A DNA stretch of 64,000 nt from Fischerella sp. CENA71 (GTDB taxonomy: Bacteria > Cyanobacteriota > Cyanobacteriia > Cyanobacteriales > Nostocaceae), in assembly GCA_024239075.1 (NCBI GenBank), contig JANBVI010000064.1:124001-188000 (forward strand), read 5' to 3'. Under the pieces are notes generated by a model. The model was given only the letters and a program-made list of their open reading frames with translations, made no database searches and had not been told where the DNA came from. A program made the translations under genes and the position numbers. Positions 50,405-50,657 of this stretch are shown in pieces (position 1 is the stretch's first letter; each line of letters begins with the position of its first letter).

Positions 50405-50478
50405 GGACGTATAGCTCAGTTGGTTAGAGCGCTACGTTGACATCGTAGAGGTCACTGGTTCGAATCCAGTTACGTCCA
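50405..50478 (+). tRNA. tRNA-Val (GAC), CAST attachment target
   Basis: 74-nt cloverleaf without encoded CCA: acceptor GGACGTA/TACGTCC plus A73, D arm with AGCTCAGTTGGTTAGAGC, anticodon arm CTACG-TTGACAT-CGTAG with anticodon GAC, T arm with GGTTCGAATCC. Bases 50426-50443 are the protospacer of the homing guide at 50623, preceded by the PAM GTT (50423-50425). The transposon end lies nine bases past the tRNA, leaving the gene intact. Confidence 0.97.
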
Positions 50479-50487
50479 TTTAGGTTC

Positions 50488-50600
50488 TGTACAGTGACTA
50501 ATTAGTTGTCATCGGTGACACATTGTTGTCATCGTGACAAATTAATTGTCGTCGGGACAAATTGATGTCGTTGAAGTGCCAGTGACAGATTAATGTCATT
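50488..50600. mobile_element. Right end of the type V-K CAST transposon (TnsB-binding repeats)
   Basis: Begins TGTACAGTGAC, the Tn7/CAST-like terminus, followed by five repeats of the form GTGAC-N-AATTA-N-TTGTC at about 50494, 50515, 50533, 50554 and 50582. GGTTC (50483-50487) just outside should be the 5-bp target duplication. The end lies 62 bp beyond the PAM, within the 60-66 bp known for Cas12k-guided insertion. The opposite end is not in the window. Confidence 0.92.
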
Positions 50601-50622
50601 TATCTATGAAACTACAGTGATA

Positions 50623-50657
50623 ATGTCAACGTAGCGCTCTCTTTCAACCCTCCCTCA
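50623..50657 (-). ncRNA. Delocalised homing crRNA (partial repeat plus 18-nt tRNA-Val guide)
   Basis: On the minus strand a partial repeat GGGAGGGTTGAAAG (50641-50654) is followed by the guide AGAGCGCTACGTTGACAT (50623-50640), identical to tRNA-Val bases 50426-50443. The match stops at the next base. Such short atypical guides outside the array direct V-K CASTs to tRNA genes (established). The partial repeat pairs without mismatch to the tracrRNA anti-repeat. Confidence 0.93.

Follow-up and report, generated by a model that had tools for sequence, protein, structure and literature searches.

The window (the whole 64,000-nt stretch of DNA that was analysed, part of contig C64) carries an intact tRNA-Val(GAC) gene followed by one end of a transposon, a homing guide, a CRISPR array, cas12k, a regulatory gene, and cargo genes (Table 1). 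Together they represent one part of a type V-K CAST close to ShCAST; the other part appears to lie on a second contig of the same assembly, C88.

Table 1. Features of the element and its target site in the window
Feature	Position	Strand	Remarks
tRNA-Val(GAC), intact homing target	50405..50478	+	75.5 bits to RF00005
PAM GGTT (NGTN)	50422..50425	+	read off the letters; NGTN in 38/38 compared matches
Homing protospacer	50426..50443	+	18/18 letters equal to the guide
GGTTC, array-side copy of the 5-bp duplication	50483..50487	+	partner GAACC at the C88 end
Array-side transposon end, TGTACAG plus inward TGACA/TGTC repeats	50488..50600	.	inner limit approximate
Homing guide, 18 nt	50623..50640	-	reverse complement of 50426-50443
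Truncated homing repeat GGGAGGGTTGAAAG	50641..50654	-	directly precedes the guide
Last array repeat, 3' end degenerate	50667..50703	-	
Third spacer	50704..50737	-	array
Three identical 37-nt repeats enclosing two spacers	50738..50919	-	RF01329, three matches
tracrRNA anti-repeat region AAGGGGGAACCCTCCCCAA	51117..51135	-	229 nt after the cas12k end; tracrRNA putative
Cas12k, 639 aa	51365..53284	-	ShCas12k, 1174 bits; model Cas12k_0_V-K
MerR-type regulator, CvkR-like	53312..53818	+	Alr3614 structure 7xn2, 296 bits
Cargo: HsdR, type I restriction	53831..57043	-	
Cargo: HATPase-like (below Pfam cut-off), STAS-like DUF4325, PIN-like (below cut-off)	57237..59080	+	
Cargo: HsdS, second half, interrupted by insertion sequence	59104..59628	-	
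Two different 121-nt IS stubs, abutting	59630..59871	.	probable assembly join; element's end in the window

Gene content of the element

The type V-K effector Cas12k is present, and the CRISPR array lies beyond its gene on the same strand, with the anti-repeat of a putative tracrRNA visible between the two. The MerR-type protein matches Alr3614, is thereby CvkR-like, and is encoded divergently from cas12k. A genome search for the array repeat (26 positions of its 3' part, some of them open, with at most two mismatches) matched only the three array copies. When the three array spacers were compared with plasmids and phages, three of the six comparisons gave no match, and the others gave partial matches (E 0.1-0.9, none over 80% of a spacer) that are read as chance.

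Cas12k, TnsB, and TnsC can be aligned over almost their full length with the solved proteins of the type V-K element ShCAST (Tn7747). The element described here differs from ShCAST in having its own target, tRNA-Val(GAC), in its cargo genes for type I restriction-modification, of which hsdS is interrupted, and in being divided over two contigs of the assembly. With the plan of cyanobacterial CASTs, including AnCAST of Anabaena sp. PCC 7120 and its CvkR, as given in PMC9938897, it has in common a MerR-type regulator divergent from cas12k, 37-nt repeats, a truncated repeat, a short anchor spacer, a GTN PAM, and restriction-modification cargo genes; in the terms of that paper, the tRNA-side end is the left end. 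AnCAST belongs to another strain, and a CvkR-like role of the MerR-type protein is here predicted from its sequence.

The homing guide and its target

The truncated homing repeat ends in GGGTTGAAAG, and the guide abuts the repeat end. All 18 letters of the guide are identical to the tRNA-Val protospacer, the letters directly before which read GGTT, and the transposon terminus TGTACAG starts 62 bases past the PAM when positions are recounted in the window. The initial annotation, which had called a type V-K CAST with a guide equal to this part of the tRNA, a GTN PAM, and a terminus 62 bp past it, is borne out with respect to the type of element, guide, PAM, target, and insertion point. According to PMC9938897, the homing unit consists of a truncated repeat and an anchor spacer that is usually 17 nt long, the PAM is GTN, and the PAM-to-end distance is 46-82 nt with one exception; the distance of 62 lies inside this range. 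The same homing scheme is outlined in PMC11406308, PMC11656645, PMC12719977, and PMC8730458.

The probable second half on C88 and the empty site

The other transposon end is found at C88:279196, where it begins TGTACAGTGACTAATTATTTGTCG (TGTACAGTGAC); it is 84% identical to the array-side end over 43 nt, and the five letters before it, GAACC, are GGTTC read on the opposite strand. The matching ends and the copies of the 5-bp duplication are spread over two contigs. An inward TGTACAGTG-like match at C88:281832 was rejected as a second end because it lies inside tnsC. C88 carries open reading frames for TnsB (579 aa), TnsC (276 aa), and TniQ (167 aa), all of V-K type: TnsB and TnsC match the ShCAST proteins over nearly their whole length (1128 and 507 bits, respectively), and TniQ matches a V-K model. 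The probable link between C88 and the window is drawn from the duplication, the empty site, and the halves of hsdS.

The tRNA-Val site was compared in five relatives (G001, G002, G003, G004, and G011). In two congeners, G002 and G004, the sequence after tRNA-Val reads GGGTCAATTGCC, a one-base variant of the C88 flank GGTTCAATTGCC; a single GGGTC stands where the element has GGTTC twice. The flank is 92.7-93.9% identical to that of the congeners over ~1.1-1.2 kb and follows tRNA-Val at a distance of 0.24 kb in G002, 0.39 kb in G001, and 1.6 kb in G004. In G001, the flank is kept but not the 5-mer, and the sequence there reads ATTGTCGATAACC. The stretches covered from G003 (32 kb) and G011 (16 kb) gave no match to the flank. 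The flank contains a gene that, from its sequence, we take to be that of cysteine synthase (cysK). An empty site with a single GGTTC had been proposed as a check; the junction of tRNA-Val with the C88 flank and the single copy of the 5-mer were indeed found in G002 and G004, but the 5-mer is GGGTC, one base off. Of the insertion history that had been said to be recorded in 250 bp, the guide, PAM, target, and one end are there, and the second end, the second GGTTC, and the transposase genes are on C88.

An end-like relic, TATACAGCGACTAATC, is present in G003 just past tRNA-Val (L051, tRNA-Val at 14785-14858, minus strand); counted by hand, its distance from the same PAM is 61 bp. It may represent an older or independent insertion at the same tRNA-Val.

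The interruption of hsdS and the end of the window part

The first half of hsdS lies at the end of C88 and the second half in the window. Both halves run into an IS stub of 120-121 nt, with TAA beside the IS end on C64 and C88 alike. In the window, two stubs of 121 nt each (59630-59750 and 59751-59871) abut; they come from different IS, and neither is part of a full copy. The stub stretch has 38 matches in the genome, at least 13 of which sit at the extreme ends of contigs, and three other copies of the first stub within contigs share 116-118 nt with the window before continuing into unrelated sequence. The AAA_35-GGDEF gene to the right of the join is ~530 kb from tRNA-Val in G004 and 1.48 Mb in G003. 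Given the abutting partial stubs, the contig-end matches, and the copies diverging after 116-118 nt, the junction at ~59750 most probably arose in the assembly, and the window beyond it is probably sequence from elsewhere in the genome and not part of the element.

It is unlikely that the join is real, i.e., that the assembly is right and the element, once inserted, was split by an inversion or translocation through IS. The multicopy IS ends (the 38 matches) would provide for such an event, and the distances of the AAA_35-GGDEF gene in G004 and G003 are compatible with a rearrangement and an assembly join alike. However, the derivation of the stubs from two different IS with no full copy, the divergence of the three other copies after 116-118 nt, and the frequency of matches at outermost contig bases argue against it.

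The TniQ and Mu-transpos_C families gave no match on C64, as opposed to three and five matches, respectively, in the genome. Although this result and the continuation of the window into other genes could point to a stranded half that has no transposase of its own and was moved in trans, with the C88 transposase belonging to a separate element, such a transposase-less relic is highly improbable and was rejected: the C88 end bears GAACC matching GGTTC, three congeners have the C88 flank next to tRNA-Val, the two parts of hsdS and the IS stubs fit together, and the passage into other genes crosses two abutting IS stubs of the type that ends many contigs.

The most probable reading (roughly 0.93) is that of a single type V-K CAST near ShCAST, inserted by RNA guidance at tRNA-Val(GAC), of which C64 and C88 would hold the halves, parted by an IS in hsdS. 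Against it stand the location of the pieces on separate contigs, the one-base difference of the empty site (GGGTC) in G002 and G004, the missing 5-mer in G001, and the lack of a flank match in the stretches covered from G003 and G011. Without the IS, the element would be ~21.9 kb long (window 50488-59632 plus C88 279196-291964).

In the proposed course of insertion, a homing crRNA composed of the truncated repeat and the 18-nt guide, together with tracrRNA and Cas12k, would recognise tRNA-Val(GAC) beside its GGTT PAM. Insertion by TnsB, TnsC, and TniQ would follow at a point 62 bp beyond the PAM, in the interval that separates tRNA-Val from cysK; GGTTC would be duplicated, and the tRNA would stay intact. 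That this homing crRNA drove this insertion is suggested by the agreement of guide, PAM, and distance. The guide, the PAM, and the insertion rule are already in print, and the element adds another example of the known V-K type; its value lies in being a clean record of V-K homing, with guide, PAM, both ends, duplication, and empty site.

Homing in other Cas12k loci

The homing rule was followed in 47 Cas12k loci, i.e., 45 public loci from one scan and two of this genome. In 38 of the 47, a repeat end is followed by a guide that has an inverted match downstream; all 38 matches have an NGTN PAM, and 32 of them have TGTAC at 50-70 nt beyond the PAM (expected, 0.022 per locus). Several of the nine loci without a match are on short contigs or have a broken cas12k. 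In particular, 271 sites behind repeat ends yielded the 38 matches, one per locus, each with GT at PAM positions 2-3 even though the PAM was no part of the search criteria; as a chance control, 920 random 17-mers from downstream of cas12k (46 of the 47 loci) yielded six inverted downstream matches at up to two mismatches. In one public locus, L123, the guide of the element described here recurs in a variant that is altered in step with its tRNA.

A comparison with the guides of other V-K elements, another check proposed at the outset, revealed the identical 17 nt at tRNA-Val(GAC) in three of the 45 public loci. These elements, of Nostoc sp. WHI, KVJ20, and TH1S01 (L097, L098, and L124), also have a GGTT PAM, and TGTAC begins 58, 59, and 57 nt past it, respectively; they differ from the element described here in their array repeats, details of the homing repeat, and the exact distance. 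In two other loci (L106 and L112), tRNA-Val(GAC) is targeted by a different guide, which matches the 3' part of the tRNA and has its own GGTT PAM.

Pairing of homing and array repeats with the tracrRNA anti-repeat

Position -11 of the repeat faces the tracrRNA anti-repeat. In the element described here, the homing repeat and the anti-repeat form an unbroken 9-nt pairing, whereas the array repeats are mismatched at -11 (duplex energies of -18.6 and -14.0 kcal/mol, respectively). Among 37 elements with both kinds of repeat, homing and array repeats differ within the last 14 nt at -11 in 29 elements and at -12, -13, and -14 in 6, 6, and 8. Each position from -10 to -1 differs in at most two of the 37, a low variation that is partly imposed because the search patterns tolerate one mismatch there (over -10 to -1 in this set and over -8 to -1 in the 57-element set below); the fair comparator for -11 is the positions outside the search pattern.

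Duplex pairing was compared in two sets. A total of 107 loci entered; 23 had no homing unit, for which a GT PAM was required, and 9 had no array repeat seen twice, which left 75 loci and, after removal of repeated combinations, 57. In the first set, uniqued (n = 26), the homing repeat paired better in 14, worse in 6, and equally in 6 elements (p = 0.12, not significant). A peak at -11 and a majority of better-pairing homing repeats were predicted before the second set, for which 60 regions were picked from located places for usable downstream sequence and first-set combinations were removed. The majority came out there (n = 31, 8-nt duplex: 24 better, 3 worse, 4 equal; sign test 4.9e-5, kinship ignored), with full pairing in 20 homing versus 0 array repeats and a paired -11 in 26 versus 8. 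Three loci with doubtful anti-repeats (L144, L188, and L190) are included in the counts; when they are left out, the second set (n = 28) gives 23 better, 1 worse, and 4 equal. In both sets together (57 unique elements), the homing repeat paired better in 38, worse in 9, and equally in 10 (p = 2.5e-5, kinship ignored); full pairing was seen in 31 homing versus 6 array repeats, and a Watson-Crick pair at -11 in 44 versus 18 of the 57. Position -11 accounts for most of the better pairing. Reduced to 42 distinct triples, the counts are 25 better, 8 worse, and 9 equal (p = 0.0046, again ignoring kinship). The rule that the homing repeat always pairs better was rejected, the nine reversed elements being opposite to it.

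When anti-repeats were shuffled, the fit observed with the own anti-repeats was reached in 0 of 5000 shuffles, for homing and array repeats alike. Kinship was corrected for only in the comparison of 14 phylogenetically independent pairs with different anti-repeats, where the own anti-repeat was the better fit for the homing repeats in 8 pairs, the poorer one in 1, and no different in 5. The contrast between homing and array repeats is modest because the latter also fit their own anti-repeat better in 5 of the 14 pairs (0 worse, 9 tied). The element described here sides with the majority, but the direction within its anti-repeat class (AACCCTCC, n = 15) is mixed, with 4 better, 5 worse, and 6 equal.

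There is about an even chance that the better fit to the tracrRNA has no role in guide choice and that another constraint, such as the repeat's own hairpin or spacer acquisition in trans, holds -11 in the array repeats and leaves the homing repeat free. A suggestion reported in PMC11406308, that V-K arrays are served by the adaptation machinery of type I-D systems, would agree with this, as would the exceptions in both directions among the 57 elements; the tracking of anti-repeat changes by homing repeats in the independent pairs argues against it. It can also be proposed, tentatively and with the odds against it, that the homing crRNA is set apart by its repeat-anti-repeat duplex, the truncated homing repeat co-evolving with the tracrRNA towards full pairing and the array repeats retaining a mismatch in the middle, mostly at -11. 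The reversed and equal elements and the mixed class AACCCTCC run counter to this pattern. In the element described here, the fully paired homing repeat, as opposed to the -11 mismatch of the array repeats, might, less surely than the steps of insertion given above, favour loading of the homing guide. If the duplex does set the homing crRNA apart, one tracrRNA-Cas12k pool could prefer homing, which would go some way to account for the presence of V-K elements at their tRNA sites and not at array targets; a functional repeat-tracr difference would offer a testable basis for the sorting of homing and array guides by the effector. The difference was not found in the V-K titles, abstract beginnings, and passages covered; Saito et al. 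2021 or Hsieh and Peters 2021 may report it.

A further V-K element and other transposase genes in the same genome

A second V-K element of the same genome (L023 7926-10720, on C70) is associated with tRNA-Arg(CCG); its guide has 1 mismatch in 17, and its cas12k contains one stop. An end with transposase genes on C63 (L021 6123) is a candidate for the other half of this tRNA-Arg element, and the flanking 5-mers give no plain match. Another tnsB-tnsC-tniQ set is present on C38 (L022 1820-4808).
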